Positions 41,796-52,029 of a stretch of 64,000 nucleotides of DNA are shown here, one piece after another. The notes beneath the pieces were generated by a model. It was not told the origin of the DNA. It did not search any database and saw only the letters and a list, made by a program, of their open reading frames with translations. A program made the position numbers and the translations under genes. How positions within the stretch are numbered: position 1 is the stretch's first letter; every line of letters begins with the position of its first letter. The DNA comes from Lucinisca nassula. Its lineage: Eukaryota > Mollusca > Bivalvia > Lucinida > Lucinidae. The DNA is taken from positions 85,523,108-85,587,107 of the forward strand of contig OY757023.1 of assembly GCA_963580285.1 (NCBI GenBank), read 5' to 3'.

Positions 41796-42629
41796 TTATT
41801 CTCTTCGTAACTTTTGAGAAATGCAGACAACAAAAAAAGCCAAAATAAGTGCTATTTTTACTTGAAATCTTTCTTCATTAAAACACGTTACATTTTGTAA
41901 AATGGTGCTTACCGGAGAAAGGGACTTTGCTTATGTACTGGAAACCGCGTCTGATCAGGTTCTACACTGTTGGCTTAAAGTGCAGCTAACAATCAAAACC
42001 CCCGTTCATTGCAATTTTGCCAACCACCACCCAGACACAATCGGTCCACCAGTACTGTCGGTACTTTGATTTTCAAAAGGTCATGTACACCCGCGTGATA
42101 GTGATGCGGTTCCAACTTAAGTTAAAACTAGGGATCCAAGTTGGCCCTAGTTTGAAAGCAACTGAATCTGCAGCATGTTGGTTCGTAGTGAGCATGCAAA
42201 TTGATCCGAAAAAAGTCGCCAAAATGAATCTCTTTATGTTATTCAAATACGGCGAAACTTCGATTGCCGAATACCTTTAGAAACTCCCAAATTACATGTA
42301 GTTCCAGACATGGGTAATTCGAGTCACTTACGGTTATTCAGAGAGTCATGCCAGCAGGCATAAAACTTATTAAACTAAATGTATGCTGTGTGTACTCATT
42401 AGAATCGCCTCAACGAGGCCCCGTTTTGGGACATTTCCAAACAGTGCAAAGACAAAGCAGATCTAAGTCTGCACTGTTTGCTTATAGATCGTACATTTTT
42501 GTAAAACTTACAACAAACAAAACTAACCTGGCATCCCTATAATTGGAAATGCATCACTCTTAACTCATAAGGTGAACTATTCCATTGTCATATACTGTTT
42601 AATAATGAAATGCCTTCCTTAATTAGGTA
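41796..42629. other. Intergenic DNA with MITE scraps
   Basis: MITE-C pieces lie at 41945-41985 and 42418-42490, and a variant MITE hairpin half at 42376-42420. The open frame 42017-42280 has no recognised family. Confidence 0.45.
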
Positions 42630-43232
42630 ACCGGTAGTAGTAAGGGCCCCACTTTAGCCCCACGAACTGCGCATGCGCAGCATTTGTATAACTTCCGGTG
42701 AAACGTAAGCGAAACGATTAGATGACGAAACTACCCTAAATATCGGACGTGTGTTCGAATGACGTAACTCGCGGTAATTACGCCGTAAGTATCCTAAATG
42801 TTGAGGCGAAAGATGTTCCCGCGGATTGGCGAAGTTCGCCGTGCCCGATTTGGTCGGGGTAATCGGGGTCTACCCCGTTCGCTCGAGCGATCCTATCCCA
42901 ATATTTAGGGAGATACTACCCGGTATAGTAGTGATGAAATTAAGTCTCTCACCCGCAAACCAATTATCGCCTCGAAAACCGGGAAAACAATGGAAGGTGT
43001 TGGAAGAGCTCGACTCGATGCGAGAAACTAGTAATGGACCGCGTCCCGGAAAAAAAAAAGTTTGGTTCGTTCGATTTGAGGTTTCACGTCCCCGTCAACG
43101 CCGTATAGGTCATTTTGGGGGGCGTTGCTCCCAGTCGCGCGAGACCTTTTCCGGACATATCTACGACATTTGTATCTCGGAGAATCTTTCTCGGCTACGG
43201 AATTTATACGGATATCAGGGGGGCGTAGCCAG
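42630..43232 (+). repeat. Left terminal inverted repeat (about 600 bp)
   Basis: Opens ACCGGTAGTAGTA. After a 35-bp diverged patch, it is almost base-for-base complementary to 49256-49857 from GCGCATGCGCAGCATTTG to GGGCGTAGCCAG. The long open frame through it is also present in the right copy because the sequences are the same; it shows no protein family. Confidence 0.93.
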
Positions 43233-43284
43233 TATGCATTATGAGAGTGGAGCGTAAAATGAGAAGCAAATGATGATAGGATTT

Positions 43285-43833
43285 TTGATCAGCTGTAATT
43301 ACCCTAAAAATTGGGGCACCTGAAGGGAGGTCACCGTAAATATCCTAAAGTTTGATCTCAAGCGATGTAGCAAACGTGTTCTGGTGGAATAGTGGAATGA
43401 CAAACAGTGCAGACCCTGGTCAGGGTGATCGGGATCTACACCGTTTTTTTCTGTCCCAATATTTAGGGTAATACTACCCGGTGCAGTCCTGCGATATTGA
43501 CAAATCGATTGTCTCCGACACTCAGTGCGAAACGCTTATCGCCTTTAAACTAGAAAACAATGAAACTCGCTGGAAGATAGCGTTTAGAAGGCTGATGTTG
43601 TCGTTTAAATTTCTAAACACGCTCGCTTCTGAATGGGCTGCGTCCCGGGAAAAGAAAGTTTTGTTCGTTCGATTTGAGGTTTCACGTCCCCGTCAACGCC
43701 GTATAGATCATTTTGGGGACGTTGCTTCCAGTCGCACGAGACCTTTACCGGACATATCTACGACATTTGTATCTCGGAGAATCTTTCTCGGCTACGGAAT
43801 TTATACGGATATCAGGGGGGCGTAGCCAGAGCA
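43285..43833 (+). repeat. Degenerate partial duplicate of the TIR inside the element
   Basis: TAATTACCCTAAAAATTGGG, AATATTTAGGGTAATACTAC and, from 43640 to 43833, close copies of the inner TIR third (TACGACATTTGTATCTCGG, GGGCGTAGCCAGAGCAAAAA). A MITE-C scrap sits at about 43400-43441. The extra copy is directly oriented to the left TIR. Confidence 0.85.
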
Positions 43834-43910
43834 AAAATACTTTAACACGAAACTCTCGATACGGAAAGAATTTGCTCCGCTTCTATCGCTACTATAAAAT
43901 TCGTAAAATC

Positions 43911-44240
43911 ATCGCGAAAACACGCCTATATAATTTTGACTCCCTTAAACCCAACTTTTAAACCGTAAACTTTGAGTATGCAGGCGGTAAACCTTATTTT
44001 CCTTATTACTGCTCCAAGACATAGGTTGTGGGTACTCGTTAGAACCGCCTCATCGAGGCGATTCTAACATATTTAAACCCAACTTTTATACAGTAAAATT
44101 TGGCTTTGCAGGGGTAAACCTTATTTTCCTTTTTAAGACATAGGTTGTGGGTACTCGTGAGAACCGCCTCGGCGAGGCGATTCTAACGTATATCTATAAC
44201 ATTTGTATCTCGGAGAATTTTTCTCGGCTATGGAATTTAT
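43911..44240. mobile_element. MITE-A left half, partly duplicated, plus a TIR scrap
   Basis: ATCGCGAAAACACGCCTATA begins a MITE-A. The segment from AACCCAACTTTTA through the hairpin is repeated (43950-44070 and 44070-44190). A short TIR-like piece (ACATTTGTATCTCGGAGAAT) follows at 44200-44235. At 44300-44345, CGTTATAACGAGTTTGTCG relates to the TIR element at 53055. Confidence 0.75.
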
Positions 44241-44423
44241 ACACTCATTTCCTATCAAGCTGATCAGATCGATGCTTAGTTTTGAGGATTCGTACCGTTT
44301 AAATTATCGTTATAACGAGTTTGTCGTTATAACGAATGTCGGTATAAAGAGGGTTGACTGAGGGCATAGCGGAAATAGATGCGCTCGATCGGGGTTAGCT
44401 CCGTTTGGTCAGGGGCGGTCAGT

Positions 44424-44735
44424 CCGTTTGTTTGTTTGTTTGTTTGATTTTGAGGTTTAACGTCCCCGTCAACGTTGTATAGGTCATTTCGGAGACGTTG
44501 CTTCCAATTTTGTGGGACTTTGACCCGACATTGAGATGAAATGACATCTCAAGCCCTGTCGTCCAATGAAACCAATAGGGTTTATAAGCATGGACGGTCC
44601 GACTAGCACCGCTTTGCCTGGGCAGGCTTAGATCCTCTAAGCGGTTTACCAGTACTCGTGTGGGGTCAGACTCAGCTCTGCGTGGAAGCATCACGCAGCC
44701 CATCATTTTCTTCAAGCCCCGATAGGCGGAATTTA
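44424..44735 (-). mobile_element. SINE-A copy inside the 7.2-kb element
   Basis: GTTTGTTTGTTTGTTTGATT tail through GAGGTTTAACGTCCCCGTCA to CAAGCCCCGATAGGCGG. Confidence 0.9.
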
Positions 44736-44744
44736 TACAGATAT

Positions 44745-44925
44745 CATAAACACACACACACACACACGCAAGAACACACGCACAAACACATACATACACA
44801 CACGCACATACATACACACACGCACATACATACACACACGCACATACATACACACACGCAAGAACACACACACACACACACACTTGCACACATACATACA
44901 TACATACATGCATACATGCATGCAT

Positions 44926-45007
<82 letters not shown>

Positions 45008-45140
45008 ACATACATACATACATACATACATACATGACTCACACTCATGTACATACATACATACATACATTCATACATAAACACACACACACACACACAC
45101 ACATGTACATACGCACATACATACATACACACACTCATGC
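44745..45140. repeat. CA/CATA/CACG simple-repeat tract
   Basis: Mixed (CA)n, (CATA)n and (CGCA)n tracts. All long frames across it on both strands are repeat translations. Confidence 0.95.
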
Positions 45141-45277
45141 ACAACGCAAACAAACTGCTTCAAACCCTAATAAAAAGCTTAAAACGACATACCCGATCAA
45201 AGCTCTACGCCATTCTAACAGACAATAACTTCTAATGGCTAAAGGCCTATGTTTTAATATGGCTACGACATATTTTG

Positions 45278-45307
45278 ATTGGTTGCTATTAATAACCGAC
45301 TTATAAT
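45278..45307 (+). promoter_or_regulatory. Possible promoter of the viral-type gene cluster
   Basis: An ATTGG (inverted CCAAT box) at 45278-45282 and TATAAT at 45302-45307 precede the first ATG of the cluster by about 70 bp. Position is suggestive only. Confidence 0.2.
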
Positions 45308-45377
45308 ACTTATGCTGTAAACAGTCAGTAGGGGTCTTTGAGATGGAGGTGGAGCTTTGAATGCGTAAAACGACAAA

Positions 45378-45569
45378 ATGAACAATGCATTATGTAGCTG
45401 TTGCGAAAATATGCCTCACAGATACGTATATGAATGTCCTATATGTCATAGAAAGAATGTGTTGTATATCGTTTCTCATTTGAGAAAAGTACACCGTGTG
45501 ACTGTAGAAGACTGGTTGGAGAAAGTAAAAAGAAAACGTGTAATTATTGTAGGTAGTGTTAATAGTTGA
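45378..45569 (+). CDS. Small C2H2-like zinc-finger protein
   Basis: A 63-residue ATG-initiated frame (AAAATGA context). Residues C20-x2-C23-x10-H34-x4-H39 form a C2H2-like finger with the run SHLRKVH. Its spacing and pattern (CPIC...SHL..VH) are identical to those of the finger at the N-terminus of the ATPase protein 1 kb downstream, so the two are probably related. Three more cysteines (C6, C8, C9) precede it, and the C-terminus is basic (KVKRKR). First gene of the cluster, 34 bp before the next open frame region. A nucleic-acid-binding or regulatory role is inferred from the finger only. Confidence 0.65.
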   Translation: MNNALCSCCENMPHRYVYECPICHRKNVLYIVSHLRKVHRVTVEDWLEKVKRKRVIIVGSVNS

Positions 45570-45690
45570 CCTTTCCAATAGAACGTATAATCTATAATCA
45601 AACGTGACTTTCAAAAGCTATTTGAGTTCTAAAATAAAAACCAATCAAAAAGAAGTATGGGACGTAAGAAGACGAGTTGACGTTTTCATT

Positions 45691-45852
45691 ATGATTCTGA
45701 CTTTGTTGTGCCTCTGTCACGAATACATAGCCAAACCTCTGATACCCAATTACAAGTTGCGATTCGAAGCTAGAGAAGGCGCAAACTGGTTTATCTACTG
45801 TTGGAAAGAGGAACTTGACGAGCATGACGAGCAATCAAAAACAAACTTATAA
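45691..45852 (+). CDS. Possible small protein with hydrophobic N-terminus
   Basis: 53 codons from the first ATG (MILTLLCLCHEYIAKPLIPN...), in a frame open since about 45598 but without an earlier ATG. The start is short and hydrophobic, then charged with a tryptophan-rich middle. It overlaps the next gene by 29 bp, as in compact viral genomes. No family recognised. It could be noise between two real genes. Confidence 0.35.
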   Translation: MILTLLCLCHEYIAKPLIPNYKLRFEAREGANWFIYCWKEELDEHDEQSKTNL

Positions 45853-46240
45853 AGTCCAACAAGAACAGCTGTGGCGTCCTATAAGAACCGTCAAATGGAT
45901 AAGCGTTATTGGTATTATCGTTATCACGCTTTCCTCTCCTATATTTGTCTTGGCTAGTATCGACTGGAGTCAAGACCCTCCCTTGGATTACCATGTCAAA
46001 GTGGAAGCTAACCAGACGGCTTGCTCGTATTTGGAACAATTTTATCTAACGGACAATGTAATAATCTCGGTGTGCAACAGAGACGACGACATCGTTCTCG
46101 ACATTCGTCTCTTCTTAAACCGAACGGCTACCATTTGCGGTATTCCTTTGAACTTGAGACAGTGGAGGACTCTAGAGAAAATCTTGCCCGGCGTGAATCG
46201 AGCTATCGAAAAAGCAAGTCGAGATGCGAATGACAGGTAG
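45824..46240 (+). CDS. Membrane-anchored protein with PC4-like domain
   Basis: 138 residues from the first ATG (45824). Residues about 25-46 are a hydrophobic span (WISVIGIIVITLSSPIFVLA), suggesting one membrane anchor. Residues about 79-130 resemble the C-terminal domain of transcriptional coactivator PC4/p15: VLDIRLFL for the VDIREF strand, GIPLNLRQWRTL for the GISL..EQW..L turn and helix, then LPGVNRAIEK. PC4 domains bind single-stranded DNA. The membrane span on such a domain is unusual; two possible N-glycosylation sites (N63, N99) fit an outward-facing domain better. The PC4 match is motif recognition by eye. Confidence 0.6.
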   Translation: MTSNQKQTYKVQQEQLWRPIRTVKWISVIGIIVITLSSPIFVLASIDWSQDPPLDYHVKVEANQTACSYLEQFYLTDNVIISVCNRDDDIVLDIRLFLNRTATICGIPLNLRQWRTLEKILPGVNRAIEKASRDANDR

Positions 46241-46395
46241 CGGGGAAAAGAATGGATTAATTTTAGAAAGATTCACCCAAGAAGCGAATTCGGACATGTC
46301 ATTAACCCATTTTTTTATCATCGACCTATTCGGCTAACGAATTTTTGATTCAGTGGTTGTTAATATATCAACTAAGCAGCCATTCAAGTCCATTC

Positions 46396-46555
46396 GAAAA
46401 AATACCTGACTGTATCCTGACTGTATCTCCTTTGTATCCTGACTGTATCCTGACTATACCCCCACTGTATCCTGACTGTATCCTGACTGTATCCCCATTG
46501 TATCCTGACTGTACCCCCCGCTGTATCCTCACTGTATCCCACTATACCCTGACTT
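46396..46555. repeat. Minisatellite built on TGTATCCTGAC
   Basis: About a dozen 11-bp-type units with variants (TGTATCCCCAT, TATACCCCCAC), between the PC4-like gene and the ATPase gene. The frame open through it (46345-46560) has no ATG. Confidence 0.9.
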
Positions 46556-46585
46556 ATTGAATGCTCAGAGACCAAGGACGTAAGA

Positions 46586-47908
46586 ATGGAACGAGTGAAT
46601 AAAAAGTTAATCATGCCGTACAAATATACACGCGTGTGTCCAGTGTGTCAAAGGCCAGGTGTTATTAATTTAAGCAGTCATCTGCAAATGGTACATCAGC
46701 TCAACGATGCGAGAGAACGCGCTGATTATCTCAAGTGTGCAGTATTATGTCCTCCCGCTCCTACGCTACAAACAAGGTTGCCAAGCTTAGCAGTAAAAAA
46801 CAAAGCGAACAAAATCAGGCGTAAGCATGACCGTCAGATACTAGAACAATCTCACAAGTCCACAGAGAGAAGACTCGACATTTTACCAGAGCCATACCCG
46901 ATGTTTCGATTCCGTCACAAATTCTCTCTTATGGTGGTGGGGCCAAGTATGTCGGGAAAAAGCTATTTCGTCAAACAACTTCTAGAAAGGGATTATATTG
47001 AATACGAAGTGGGCAACAAACCTCGTAAAATACAGTGGTTTTATGGTCAGTATCAAGATATGTTCAAAGAAATGAAACGAACATTGAAACAGGAAATTAC
47101 CTTTCGAGAAGGCCTTCCAGAATTTCAAAACAACCTGAGTGATTTAGACACGAGATATAATAACATCGTTGTCTTGGACGACTTAATGGATCTCGCCGTA
47201 GACAGTCCGATCATTTCCAAATTATTTACTCAAGGCAGACATAGGAACGCCAGCGTTATCTTGTTGTTACAAAACGCTTTCCCTAAGGGTAAACATAACA
47301 CTAGTATCAGTAGAAATGCCCAGTATATGGTTTTATATCGAAGTCCAGCCGACAGACGACAGATAGGAATAATGGCGGACAGGATATTTGATAAAAGCAA
47401 ACCCACGTTCATGAAGATTTACAATGACATTACGTCAAAACCGTATTCGTACGTCCTAGTCGACAACAAAGCCGATACCTTGTCAGACAGACAAGTCGTC
47501 AGTGATGTGTTTGGCGTTTGTGTCTCGTACGCTCTTTCAGGAACAAAACATCGGATAGCAGGTGATCGTATTTCAATAGAGCCTCGGACCAGTGGCCCAT
47601 GTTCTTCGGATCAAGACATTGAAAGTGATTTGGACGCTAGTGTACTCCAGAATGATCAAAGGAAAGGTCCAATCGTCGTTTATCTAAGCAATAGTCAATG
47701 GGCGAAAGTGGACCACTTGTTTCGAGAAACGGAAACCGTTGGAAACCTACCATTTGGATGGAATGTATGGAGGATATATAAAATGGACACGGACGCCTAC
47801 TATCTTCCCGTTCTTTTAAAGGATTCCAGTGCACAAATGACAAAGATGTATCGTGTATATAAAGACTGGTTAACATATACATTCCCGATGCTGAAAGATC
47901 AGTTGTAA
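46586..47908 (+). CDS. A32/FtsK-HerA-like DNA-packaging ATPase with N-terminal zinc finger
   Basis: 440 residues, intact, ATG in good context (AAGAATGG). Residues 18-37 form a C2H2-like finger (C18, C21, H32, H37), then a basic linker (KIRRKHDR). The ATPase core follows: Walker A GPSMSGKS at 119-126, Walker B IVVLDDL at 194-200, then the family-typical FTQGRHRNASVILLLQN (214-230), with Q229 at the sensor position, and YRSPADRRQI (251-260). This order matches the packaging ATPases of Polintons, adintoviruses and relatives that pump DNA into capsids. Residues about 330-440 are a C-terminal extension (GPIVVYLSNSQW ...) that I do not recognise. Unbroken frame in a repeat-riddled region implies recent activity or function. 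A P-loop ATPase of this family is near certain; the exact lineage is not. Confidence 0.9.
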   Translation: MERVNKKLIMPYKYTRVCPVCQRPGVINLSSHLQMVHQLNDARERADYLKCAVLCPPAPTLQTRLPSLAVKNKANKIRRKHDRQILEQSHKSTERRLDILPEPYPMFRFRHKFSLMVVGPSMSGKSYFVKQLLERDYIEYEVGNKPRKIQWFYGQYQDMFKEMKRTLKQEITFREGLPEFQNNLSDLDTRYNNIVVLDDLMDLAVDSPIISKLFTQGRHRNASVILLLQNAFPKGKHNTSISRNAQYMVLYRSPADRRQIGIMADRIFDKSKPTFMKIYNDITSKPYSYVLVDNKADTLSDRQVVSDVFGVCVSYALSGTKHRIAGDRISIEPRTSGPCSSDQDIESDLDASVLQNDQRKGPIVVYLSNSQWAKVDHLFRETETVGNLPFGWNVWRIYKMDTDAYYLPVLLKDSSAQMTKMYRVYKDWLTYTFPMLKDQL

Positions 47909-47932
47909 TTACATTGCGATCGTAAAAAGTCA

Positions 47933-47934
<2 letters not shown>

Positions 47935-48026
<92 letters not shown>
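47935..48026. repeat. TA dinucleotide tract
   Basis: About 45 TA units, starting 26 bp after the ATPase stop codon. Confidence 0.97.
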
Positions 48027-48029
<3 letters not shown>

Positions 48030-48168
48030 ATGGCGATGTAGATGTGATAAATGGATTTAAAGTATGAAAAAAGCATATATTTGCCTCATCTAACACGTAT
48101 GTATCACTGTATTGCACTGTCGCGTTCTCTTGTATTCTTTTTATGTACTTATGCATGCCTTGCGGTTC

Positions 48169-48174
48169 AATAAA
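48169..48174 (+). terminator. Possible polyadenylation signal for the gene cluster
   Basis: AATAAA about 260 bp after the ATPase stop, with a T/G-rich stretch downstream. Plausible 3' end of the transcript. Confidence 0.4.
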
Positions 48175-48246
48175 CATGTAAACTTATGCGTTTTCTGGCT
48201 CCTTGTTTAATTCCCGTAATTTTAAAACGCCTGCTGTTTATGTGAG

Positions 48247-48354
48247 TCATGTATGTATGTATGTATGTATGTATGTATGTATGTATGTGCGTGTGCGTGT
48301 GTTCTTGCGTGTGTGTGTGTGTTTATTATGTATGTGTGTGTGTGTGTGTGTTCT

Positions 48355-48400
<46 letters not shown>

Positions 48401-48412
48401 AGTGTGCGTGTG
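48247..48412. repeat. GTAT and GT simple repeats
   Basis: (TATG)n then (GT)n with interruptions. Long frames across it are repeat translations. Confidence 0.96.
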
Positions 48413-48435
48413 TGATGCTGATTCATTTTTCGCAA

Positions 48436-48652
48436 TACGATAACATACCCGTGCGACATTTTTCACATCTCCAAATATGGCGACATATTTATGAAAATCC
48501 ATGATATTTTTCTTTTTTATACTGCAAACATAGGTTGTGGGTACTCGTTAGAACCGCCTCTTTGTGGTCTTGGAGCAGAAATAAGAAAAATAATGTACAC
48601 CCAGATTTCTCCGTAAAAAGTGGGGTTTAGTGGGGGTGTTCACGTGATGCGA
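48436..48652. mobile_element. MITE-B, internally deleted
   Basis: ACGATAACATACCCGTGCGA start, half hairpin GTTAGAACCGCCTC at 48548, missing complement, and GGGTGTTCACGTGATG end. Confidence 0.85.
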
Positions 48653-48699
48653 TCTTTGAGTTCATCACCAATACTTAGTATACCTTTCAATTTCGAGCC

Positions 48700-49072
48700 A
48701 TTCTATAGGGAGTTAAAAGCGATTTCCCGCATTTTGGCCACGGTTTGATGATTTCATCTCCTTAAGACGATTCGTTTGATACCCAGATCACCCAAATCGG
48801 TTCAGGCATAAGGGAAATAGAGCCATTTAAAGGTTACCCAAAGGGAGATAATTTGAACCGTCAAGGAAGATAATTACGCCAAGGTCCGATGATTGCGTCG
48901 CGTAGGTCTCCTTTAGACAATTCGTTTGATACCCAGATCACCCAAATCGGTTCAGTCATAAGGGAAATAGAGCCATTTAAAGATTACCCAAAGGGAGATC
49001 ATTTGAACCACGAAGGGAGGTAATTAGGCCACAGTTGAATGTTTTCATCGTGTAGGTCTCCTTTAGACGAGT
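48700..49072. repeat. Tandem duplication, unit about 140 bp
   Basis: TTCGTTTGATACCCAGATCA at about 48774 and 48922, with the following AAGGGAAATAGAGCCATTTA in both. A third partial unit starts near 49020. Confidence 0.85.
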
Positions 49073-49255
49073 CCAAACACGATCCCCTTCGGATAAAAAC
49101 TAAGACCGTTTGGTTTCGCAAACATTGTAGATCCGGATCAGACGCCACACAACATCTGATCAATGTGTAAACTATTCGCTTACAGTGCAGGGTATAGTCT
49201 TCCCTAACTTGATTTATGTCGCTCTGTATTGATCAATATTTTTTTTTTTTTTGCT

Positions 49256-49857
49256 CTGGCTACGCCCCCACGATATCCGTATAAATTCCGTAGCCGAGAA
49301 AGATTCTCCGAGATACAAATGTCGTAGATATGTCCGGAAAAGGTCTCGCGCGACTGGGAGCAACGCCCCCCAAAATGACCTATACGGCGTTGACGGGGAC
49401 GTGAAACCTCAAATCGAACGAACCAAACTTTTTTTTTCCGGGACGCGGTCCATTACTAGTTTCTCGCATCGAGTCGAGCTCTTCCAACACCTTCCATTGT
49501 TTTCCCGGTTTTCGAGGCGATAATTGGTTTGCGGGTGAGAGACTTAATTTCATCGCTACTATACCGGGTAGTATCTCCCTAAATATTGGGATAGGATCGC
49601 TCGAGCGAACGGGGTAGACCCCGATTACCCCGACCAAATCGGGGACGGCGAACTTCGCCAATCCGCGGGAACATCTTTCGCCTCAACATTTAGGATACTT
49701 ACGGCGTAATTACCGCGAGTTACGTCATTCGAACACACGTCCGATATTTAGGGTAGTTTCGTCATCTAATCGTTTCGCTTACGTTTCACCGGAAGTTATA
49801 CAAATGCTGCGCATGCGCAGTCCATGATGCCCAAGTGATGCCCATACTACTACCGGT
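49256..49857 (-). repeat. Right terminal inverted repeat (about 600 bp)
   Basis: Complement of 42630-43232. Its inner edge abuts a T tract; its outer edge ACTACTACCGGT meets a minisatellite directly. Confidence 0.93.
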
Positions 49858-50096
49858 CATTTCGTACCCAAGTCATTTCGTACCCTAGTCATTTCGTACC
49901 ATTTTGGTCATTTCGTACCCGTCTTTTGGTCATTTCGTACCCACTAACAACCATTTCGTACCCAAGTCGTAACCGTTTTGGTCATTTCGTACCTGGGTAC
50001 AAATTGACCAAAAGGTACGAATTTACCAAAACGGTTACGAAATGACTTTAAAATAGTCAATGCGTACCCAAGTCATTTGGTCATTTCGTATCTGGG
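49857..50096. repeat. Minisatellite of GGTCATTTCGTACCC units
   Basis: About a dozen variant units abutting the right TIR. The order inverts within the block (GGTACGAAATGACC appears after about 50000). Confidence 0.9.
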
Positions 50097-50317
50097 AAGG
50101 ATAGTAGTTTAGGTCGTAGTACCAAAGCGTTAATCCAAAATCATTAGTCCATAGACAAAATGGCAAATATCAATGTTCAGATCAACAGACATGGACTCTA
50201 GAAGAGTGTAATCAGGCGTCCGCGGATATTAGAAATTACTTGGTAAGCAAGCTTCGCCCACCATGCCCATCGACCCGAACGAAGGTATGTCCGAGATTTT
50301 GGAAGTCTTCCTATGGC

Positions 50318-51085
50318 TTTCCATTGGCAAACATATCAGAAATAATTCTGGAAATGGCCACATTGTACGGATCAACAAGATCATGGTGCCTCCCATAGAA
50401 CTTCTTTAGTGTTGATACCAGTTTGGTTTTTTGATACCCCTGGCATAACAACCTGGTAGTAAGCACCTTCCTACGTTCCATAAATTTTGATACTTGGAAC
50501 AGGCTCTAGCATAACGGATTAACTGTGAAACGTAAAAACTCCATATGCTGGTGCAGACGGGATATTACGGCTCAGGAAGGGAAAGTTAACAATGGGAAAA
50601 TTGAAGTCATCTCGTTTATCGTACAGCCTAGTAGTAAGCTTCCCGTTGTCAATATAGAGATAACAATCCAAGTATGAGGAGGAGGTTGCAGTCTCTGTTG
50701 TTTCCTTAATTTCAAGTTTACGTGGATAGATGAATTCCAAGTACTCTACAAATTTAGCATTTTTCAGAGACAGTAAATCATCTATATATCTGTAGGTGAA
50801 ATTGAATTGTTGTGCAAGGCGTTTCTTGCCTGCTTTGAGGAGACCTTGTACAAACTCCGCCTCATACGAGTACAAGAACAAGTCGGCAAGCTCTGGTGCA
50901 CAATAATACCCATTGGTATGCCAATTGTTTGCTGAAATAATAGGCCACTGAACTGCACGAAAATATTGTCAATTAGGTATTCCAGCATCCTAATGACATC
51001 TGCATCAGTGTACTTTTGTGGTGCATCAGAGTGATCTCGAACGAAATATGTGTCTTTGTAGCCAAGGACAACATACTGGTACCGA
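50318..51085 (-). pseudogene. Penelope-like reverse transcriptase fragment
   Basis: Minus-strand translation runs YQYVVLGYKDTYF, LLFQQTIGIPMG, then after a frameshift near 50900 ADLFLYSYEAEFVQGLL, catalytic YIDDLLSL, EIKETTETATSSSYLD, YDKRDDFNFPIVNFPFLS and NIPSAPAYGVF. A second frameshift or stop near 50520 follows, with thumb pieces (LIRYARACSKY, KKFYGRHHDLVDPY) to about 50320. More complete in the palm than the other two copies and from a different PLE subfamily. No endonuclease domain seen. Confidence 0.88.
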
Positions 51086-51728
51086 CAGACTATTTATTTT
51101 ATTTATTTATTTATTTATTATATCTTATTCTTTCTTTCTTTCCTTCTTTACTTATTTATTAAAGAGAATTTTCCGATAAAAACTTGTGATATTTTTCATA
51201 TTTCTGCTCCAAGCAAAGATTGTTGAAATTCGTTAAAGCCGCCTCGACATCAATTACCTGGGCCTTCTGGTTTCAGAGATGAAGATTTTTAAAGGTTTTC
51301 CATGTATAAGCCTATGTAAAACAGCTGGGCCACGGGGCGGGCCATTTTTTGCCCCATGGCTCTAATTTTAACAATCTTGGTAATGTCCACTAGATGAAGC
51401 GTCATACCAAATATCAAAGACATTGGACTTCTGGTTTAAAGACAAGAAGATTTTTTTAAAGTTTTTCTAGTTTTCCCCTTTTTTGTTGCCATGGCAACCA
51501 GGGTTTTGCATGGAATGGAATTCTTTGAACATCTTTTAGAGAGGTCCATCCACAGATCATTTTGCCAAGTTTCGTCAAAATCTCTTCAGTGGTTGAGAAG
51601 ATGTCATTTAAAGAAATTGTGAAAGGACATACGGACGGACGACCACGACGGACGGTGACCAATCACAACAGTTCCCCATGAACATTCGGCTCAGGTGACC
51701 TACAGAAAAGCTTTAATACAATTCATAT
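51086..51728. other. Intergenic DNA with simple repeat, MITE scrap and a low-copy repeat
   Basis: (TTTA)n/(TTTC)n at 51100-51160, and a MITE-A/B hairpin scrap at 51180-51248 (GTGATATTTTTCATATTTCT). 51250-51700 ends in GGACATACGGACGGACGACC, resembling the end of the 26.1-kb tandem insertion. Confidence 0.5.
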
Positions 51729-52012
51729 CATACCAAAGTCATTTGGTACGTACGTTTGAAAAATTGGGTACGAAATAACCAAAATCGTTTCCCATAAAAA
51801 TTAAAAGTTGGTACGAAATGACTAAAGAGGGTTCGAAATAACCAAAAACCTTTCCCAGAAAAAAATTAATAGTGGGTACGAAATGACCAAATAGGGTACG
51901 AAATGACCAAAGTGGGTACGAAATGACCAAATTGCAAAATAAAACGGGTACGAAATGACCAAAATGGTACGAAATGACTAGGGTACGAAATGACTTGGGT
52001 ACGAAATGACTG
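51729..52012. repeat. Minisatellite of GGTACGAAATGACC units (inverse of 49857-50096)
   Basis: About a dozen units, opposite in orientation to the block beside the right TIR, so the two blocks bracket the Penelope remnant. Confidence 0.9.
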
Positions 52013-52029
52013 GAAACCCTTAATTATAC

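Follow-up and report, generated by a model that had tools for sequence, protein, structure and literature searches.

How does an element that carries a gene for a packaging motor, and in which genes for a polymerase or an integrase are not found, spread through an animal genome? This question is raised by a locus of the bivalve Lucinisca nassula (assembly GCA_963580285.1, contig OY757023.1), where a compact element with long inverted termini lies in a 64,000-nucleotide stretch of DNA, hereafter the window (positions 85,523,108 to 85,587,107 of the forward strand; G000:C17:85523108-85587107 within the 2.93-Gb host genome). We found that this window element is probably a helper-dependent satellite of a resident Polinton. 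From its Polinton ends, terminal inverted repeats (TIRs) common to full-length Polintons, 6-bp target-site duplications (TSDs) and missing enzymes, we infer mobilisation by the helper, which the sequence data strongly support.

Ends and insertion site of the element

The arms at 42630-43232 and 49256-49857 are inverted copies of each other with 97.7% identity over 603 columns, and chance is excluded as the source of an inverted repeat of such size. The outermost 13 bases, ACCGGT followed by AGTAGTA, are common to both ends, and the junctions read ACCGGT/AGTAGTA on the left and TACTACT/ACCGGT on the right. Because ACCGGT is its own reverse complement, a direct 6-bp duplication mimics part of an inverted repeat here. 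Vertebrate Mavericks are described as having (AGT)2//(ACT)2 or (AG)3//(CT)3 ends and perfect 6-bp TSDs (PMC8097293), and the window element shows the first of these motifs (AGTAGTA...TACTACT). Given this Maverick-type motif and the 6-bp rule, we take the outer ACCGGT to be the TSD, so that the element proper spans 42636-49851 (7,216 bp, with TIRs of 596/597 bp and ends AGTAGT...ACTACT). An earlier note on this DNA had proposed near-identical inverted termini of about 600 bp delimiting an element at 42630..49857; the termini and the 7.2-kb element are real, copies elsewhere start at the same base, and the outer six bases on each side are the TSD. The features of the ends are as follows.

42630 to 42635, no strand: left TSD ACCGGT, 6 bp, palindromic (from the sequence, the end motif with the TSD rule, and the TIR copies)
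42636 to 43232, plus strand: left TIR, starting AGTAGTA (from the arm alignment)
42667 to 42680, no strand: palindrome CTGCGCATGCGCAG, lying 31 bp inward of the left end
49256 to 49851, minus strand: right TIR, ending TACTACT (from the arm alignment)
49852 to 49857, no strand: right TSD ACCGGT (from the sequence)

The palindrome, an NRF-1-like motif, has a second site at 49807-49820, these being its only two occurrences in the window. The inner part of the TIR (43060-43232) is similar to a dispersed repeat that recurs many times in the window and that we label as like a short interspersed element (SINE); a retroposon may thus have joined the TIR.

Copies of the TIRs belong to several classes of elements

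Using the left TIR as a probe of the whole genome, we scored 40 of 1,674 candidates, all full-length matches with 96-100% identity. The match starts at query base 6/7 (42635/42636, AGTAGT) in 34 of the 40, at base 4 in four, and at base 1 in the window's own two. Together they represent 30 elements, ten with both ends among the matches (window included) and 20 with one. Perfect 6-bp TSDs were found at 17 of the 18 end pairs checked, namely at the window element and at 16 of 17 others (9/9, 2/3, and 5/5 from ATPase copies); as a chance control, random 6-mers of the window agree in 85 of 200,000 trials. In this sample, 17 of 18 end pairs are therefore true insertions and not the unrelated inverted duplication that had been named as a possible refutation. 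The converse case, the ATPase gene occurring apart from these TIRs, was sampled in 10 of 41 ATPase copies (all on the plus strand): TIR sequence lies beside all ten, with a complete outer end in nine, both ends in five, and partial TIR matches only in C2_82.

We classified the nine other paired copies and four further elements from their interiors or from 8.8-9.3 kb pieces, whereas 2 kb inward of one TIR served for the other 16, which leaves some calls provisional. Eight of the 30 elements are small and window-like (type 1). Seven are full-length Polintons, two of which (22 and 28 kb) were seen with both ends, while the others were assigned by helper genes or end-region similarity, several with a PolB match nearby. 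Another seven form a second small type (type 2; four assigned by gene content, three by gene fragments and a similar subterminal region), five resemble two paired copies of 5.3 and 6.4 kb in which no open reading frame (ORF) of at least 130 amino acids (aa) was found once low-complexity ORFs were excluded, and three are ambiguous.

Besides another zinc-finger ATPase, of C2H2 type and with an additional match to Adeno_IVa2, type-2 elements encode an adenain-like protease (below cut-off) together with a protein that has a BIR/IAP domain (PF00653, E 2.4e-23; L036:4397-4831, minus strand). Their ATPase, 153-aa and protease genes are homologous to helper genes with 37-67% identity.

The outermost 35 bp of the TIR vary between copies, and the two ends of a copy agree with each other (0-1 mismatches) in 9/9 of the other paired copies. 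Such homogenisation within copies would fit protein-primed end-to-end replication, or repair of one end from its partner, and may be a replication footprint. Only in the window copy do the two ends carry different variants (42636-42670 and 49817-49851, 9 mismatches); inward of them, the 559 columns of its TIR alignment contain 4 mismatches and 1 gap. This copy may be a recombinant.

A full-length Polinton as candidate helper

A 21.9-kb full-length copy on C4 (pieces L029 and L030) encodes the enzymes that are not found in the window element. These comprise a PolB of 1,425 aa (PF03175, DNA_pol_B_2, E 6.9e-49) and an integrase (PF00665, rve, E 3.2e-12) with a Chromo domain (E 3.1e-7). The copy further encodes a TBP-like protein (PF00352, E 2.8e-30; L030:4701-5237, minus strand) with 99% identical homologues in L032 and L062, as well as an adenain-like protease (PF00770, Peptidase_C5, E 0.0022) and a 219-aa ATPase (Pox_A32, E 0.00036), both below the curated cut-off. 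Further ORFs lacking an assignment include ones of 432, 186, 137 and 139 aa. The genome thus contains full-length Polintons whose TIRs are those of the window element, and the insertions have Polinton ends and 6-bp TSDs, in line with the non-autonomous, helper-moved derivative that the earlier note had suggested.

Among three copies each, amino-acid changes per site are fewer than silent ones in the helper 432-aa ORF, ATPase and TBP genes (ratio of nonsynonymous to synonymous rates, dN/dS, of about 0.21, 0.05 and 0.14, respectively); there is no clear depletion in the integrase (0.8, 3 copies), PolB (0.4, 2 copies) or the type-2 ATPase (0.9, 4 copies). A genome search with 600 residues of the helper PolB yielded 73 scored matches, 58 at 94% identity or above and 15 at 79-81%. 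The latter (G000:C20:42095316 and 14 others) show that a second PolB lineage coexists in the genome.

A foreign cassette between helper-type ends

The interior of the window element contains the following features.

43268 to 44424, plus strand: left subterminal arm, also present in the full-length Polinton (from sequence comparison)
44434 to 44740, no strand: nested dispersed repeat (SINE-like by our label), matched at 82-92% by stretches of 270-300 bp in other parts of the window
45378 to 45569, plus strand: ORF A, 63 aa, a free-standing C2H2-like finger, with a family-like start MPHRY at 45411
45691 to 45852, plus strand: ORF B, 53 aa from the first ATG, with a hydrophobic stretch; doubtful gene
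45824 to 46240, plus strand: ORF C, 138 aa, one hydrophobic, transmembrane-like (TM-like) helix and a C-terminal domain; 116 homologues
46405 to 46554, no strand: 11-bp minisatellite upstream of ORF D
46586 to 47908, plus strand: ORF D, 440 aa, C2H2 finger, A32-type P-loop ATPase and conserved C-terminal domain
48946 to 49249, no strand: right subterminal arm, matched with 99.3% identity by part of the C6_129 locus

ORF D, the largest ORF (family start at 46613), matches Pox_A32 (PF04665) above cut-off with E 1.5e-7, as do 21/21 aligned members of its family. Its N-terminal finger has the form CxxC..H..H, and the C-terminal domain is conserved in relatives. The predicted structure (mean predicted local distance difference test score, pLDDT, of 75) gave 12 matches with E<=0.001 in a library of viral structures, six named as giant-virus packaging ATPases, three as ATPase or P-loop NTPase, and three unnamed or uncharacterised. 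Together, the family match and the structural model identify ORF D as a predicted A32/FtsK-type packaging ATPase like that of Polintons and Mavericks, as had been read from its motifs. The ORF D family is wide, with 534 matches at E<=0.001 and full-length homologues in distant animals; among the 120 matches listed, our own Walker A and Walker B patterns occur in 104 and 112, respectively, and the two species-named rows come from sea anemones.

The C-terminal domain of ORF C, with four strands and two helices, resembles PC4/PUR folds that bind single-stranded DNA, each line of this evidence being weak. ORF A is a paralogue of the N-terminal finger of ORF D (blastp E 4e-11 in a 237-protein set, 0/300 shuffles), and type-2 elements carry a counterpart of it that is 87-89% identical. 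Within the proposed gene cluster, C and D have their own homologues, A is such a paralogue and B is doubtful; A, C and D are kept together in C17_54, C5_108, C20_80 and C22_61. The contigs of an ORF C homologue (P0132) and an ORF D homologue (P0008) are both sized 1,046,685, a hint and no more that the two genes travel together in another genome.

We examined whether the window element is a remnant of the resident helper. In four type-1 interiors (L034, L035, L060 and L061, of which L034 matches window 43280-49222 at 98%), none of the other helper genes tested gave a tblastn match at E<=1e-5: not PolB, not the integrase, not the adenain-like protease in its helper or type-2 copies, and not the ORFs of 432, 186 and 137 aa, the capsid genes of the helper being themselves unrecognised. 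Likewise, ORF scans detected no rve domain in 4 + 10 ORFs and no capsid family among the Pfam matches of these 14. The polymerase, integrase, protease and capsid genes that the earlier note could not find were thus not found by these searches either. An alignment of 215 columns puts the identity of ORF D at 28% with the helper ATPase, at 40% with the type-2 ATPase and at 54-82% with 15 members of an animal zinc-finger A32 (ZnF-A32) family, from which the helper and type-2 ATPases cluster apart with support 1.0. The left TIRs of the type-1 copy C5_108 and the helper copy C4_117 nevertheless differ by only 0.2%, and the left arm of the window element is 98.7% (43268-43739) and 89.6% (44118-44424) identical to the full-length Polinton. 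A foreign ATPase and the lack of other helper genes, together with a helper-like left TIR and arm, indicate helper-type ends around a foreign cassette. On these comparisons, a deletion remnant of this helper is rejected, and the second option that had been offered, a small lineage standing apart and following its own logic, gains support.

The right arm is different. None of the four full-length Polinton pieces compared contains a match to it, and outside type 1 it is best matched by the C6_129 locus, which has type-2 genes and where the matching stretch adjoins the end with the failed TSD. Unlike arms and two end variants in one copy suggest that the ends recombine. They are also what would be expected if the window element derived by deletion from a different autonomous Polinton lineage, with the zinc-finger ATPase and ORF C as leftover morphogenesis genes, and later exchanged its ends with the present helper; decay and hitch-hiking would then suffice, with no new logic. 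The width of the ATPase family agrees with such an origin, and the helper-homologous genes of type 2 resemble a portion of the virion module of another Polinton. We nonetheless consider this origin unlikely, since none of 41 ATPase copies lies within 30 kb of the 73 listed PolB matches (37 of the 41 share a contig with one), although the PolB query would miss distant lineages. Furthermore, the genome holds at least 41 near-full copies of ORF D with 96% identity or more, 39 of them lacking a stop in the matched part, beside decayed or partial relatives of 45-99% identity, which suggests a lineage that persists.

The left arm also holds a diverged second TIR-like copy (about 43300-43837), and the left interior contains SINE-like dispersed repeats and CA/TA microsatellites. 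The stretch 46427-46584, upstream of ORF D, occurs in two ORF-less copies as well, with 97-98% identity.

Recent spread and selection

Comparing 10 other ORF D copies with the window (12 rows, with the window once and C17_54 twice), we found nine distinct differences, 0-3 in each copy per 1,293 bp. The few differences among copies of ORF D and ORF C point to a very recent burst, with no sign of selection in the recent copies.

Several observations weigh against the satellite interpretation. Of the nine ORF D differences, six are nonsynonymous and three synonymous, five copies of ORF C show no synonymous difference and a dN of 0.0043, and the ORF D frame is broken in two type-1 copies (C5_108 and C22_61). 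Amino-acid changes are hence not depleted among recent copies, as for neutral passengers after insertion, and selection on the cassette is unproven. ORF B, 98.8-100% identical in two sister copies, had no match in a homologue search and may not be a gene. One of the 18 end pairs, C6_129, has no matching TSDs. The 432-aa ORF of the helper has no significant PDB or Pfam match, leaving its capsid genes not found. Lastly, particles, packaged DNA, transcripts or mobilisation are not among the observations.

The substitution pattern also favours the idea that the helper copies and inserts any DNA placed between Polinton ends, ATPase and ORF C being captured genes with no role in movement. Consistent with this, the 5.3- and 6.4-kb elements have the same TIRs and TSDs, and the ends may therefore suffice for movement. 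What makes a mere passenger cassette rather improbable is that two differently built small types both carry a zinc-finger packaging-type ATPase and a small finger (A or its counterpart A'), a recurrence that random capture does not predict. The distant full-length homologues of ORF D and the many homologues of ORF C also argue against it.

The right flank and a Mutator-like alternative

A second TIR element of about 2.15 kb (49857-52009), with TCATTTCGTACCC tandem units, abuts the right end exactly, so that the right flank looks like satellite DNA. Its arms (49853-49925 and 51941-52013) are 97% complementary, and the flanking CCGG/CTGG may represent a TSD of 4 bp in which one base has changed.

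The window contains exactly two copies of the 9-bp word CCTTAATTA (42617-42625 and 52018-52026), and together they flank both elements, which raises the question of a Mutator-like element (MULE) with long TIRs and captured genes. MULEs are characterised by long TIRs, TSDs of 8-10 bp and sometimes tandem TIRs (PMC5225508, PMC3310237). In a random-pair control, 0.2% of pairs share at least 9 bp, and the word is possibly there by chance. At 17 of 18 end pairs the TSD has 6 bp, not 8-10, and sits directly at the AGTAGT ends, and the same TIRs are found on elements with PolB and integrase. The copies therefore contradict a MULE identity for the element family, and we regard it as extremely improbable.

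A possible division of labour

For a satellite of the resident Polinton, the full-length elements would likely supply the protein-primed polymerase in trans, and copying from the AGTAGT ends would likely keep both TIRs of a copy alike. The chromodomain integrase would likely be supplied in the same way and give the 6-bp TSD. The cassette may well be the satellite's own contribution: its zinc-finger A32-type ATPase could plausibly pump or escort satellite DNA into helper-capsid particles, while the lone finger and the TM/PC4-like protein might serve as DNA- or membrane-side adaptors.

More broadly, we tentatively put forward, as a possible though doubtful generalisation, that animal genomes harbour packaging-pirate Polinton satellites of at least two lineages (types 1 and 2), whose own ZnF A32 ATPase would redirect helper-made particles to satellite DNA. 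If true, such elements would be to eukaryotes what phage satellites are to bacteria, and they would indirectly suggest that particles are still being made by animal Polintons. According to PMC8097293, Maverick particles have not been observed. A recent high-copy element with a packaging motor as its largest gene would make sense if particles exist. The locus provides a helper/satellite pair with TSD-backed copies within one animal genome, and satellite versus helper DNA offers small, countable markers for testing particle formation.

Comparison with known systems

The literature searched, with most subscription journals and Repbase outside it, yielded no description of non-autonomous, mini or satellite Polintons or Mavericks. 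Like Polintons and Mavericks, the window element has (AGT)2//(ACT)2 ends, a 6-bp TSD, long TIRs in common with the resident full-length family, and an A32/FtsK-type ATPase. Unlike them, it lacks PolB, integrase, protease and a recognised capsid gene, and its ATPase, which has a zinc finger at the N-terminus and a domain at the C-terminus, comes from a different subfamily. Adintoviruses form part of the animal Polinton-class gene pool, and the window element differs from them in having no polymerase, integrase or recognised virion genes. FtsK/HerA-type (PacK) ATPases are named in PMC11071296. In size, the window element, at 7.2 kb, falls short of the 15-20 kb reported for Polintons (PMC4028283).

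Phage satellites (PICI or P4-like; PMC6431247 on PICIs) are likewise small and have a packaging-type gene of their own, and the window element also seems to share with them the use of a helper's mobilisation route. It differs from them in being eukaryotic, with Polinton-type ends and insertion; any particle piracy is putative, and we claim no homology. Transpovirons, in the account of PMC11071308, are also small relatives from the Polinton world that have no structural module; they keep a pPolB, whereas the window element has no PolB and keeps the ATPase.

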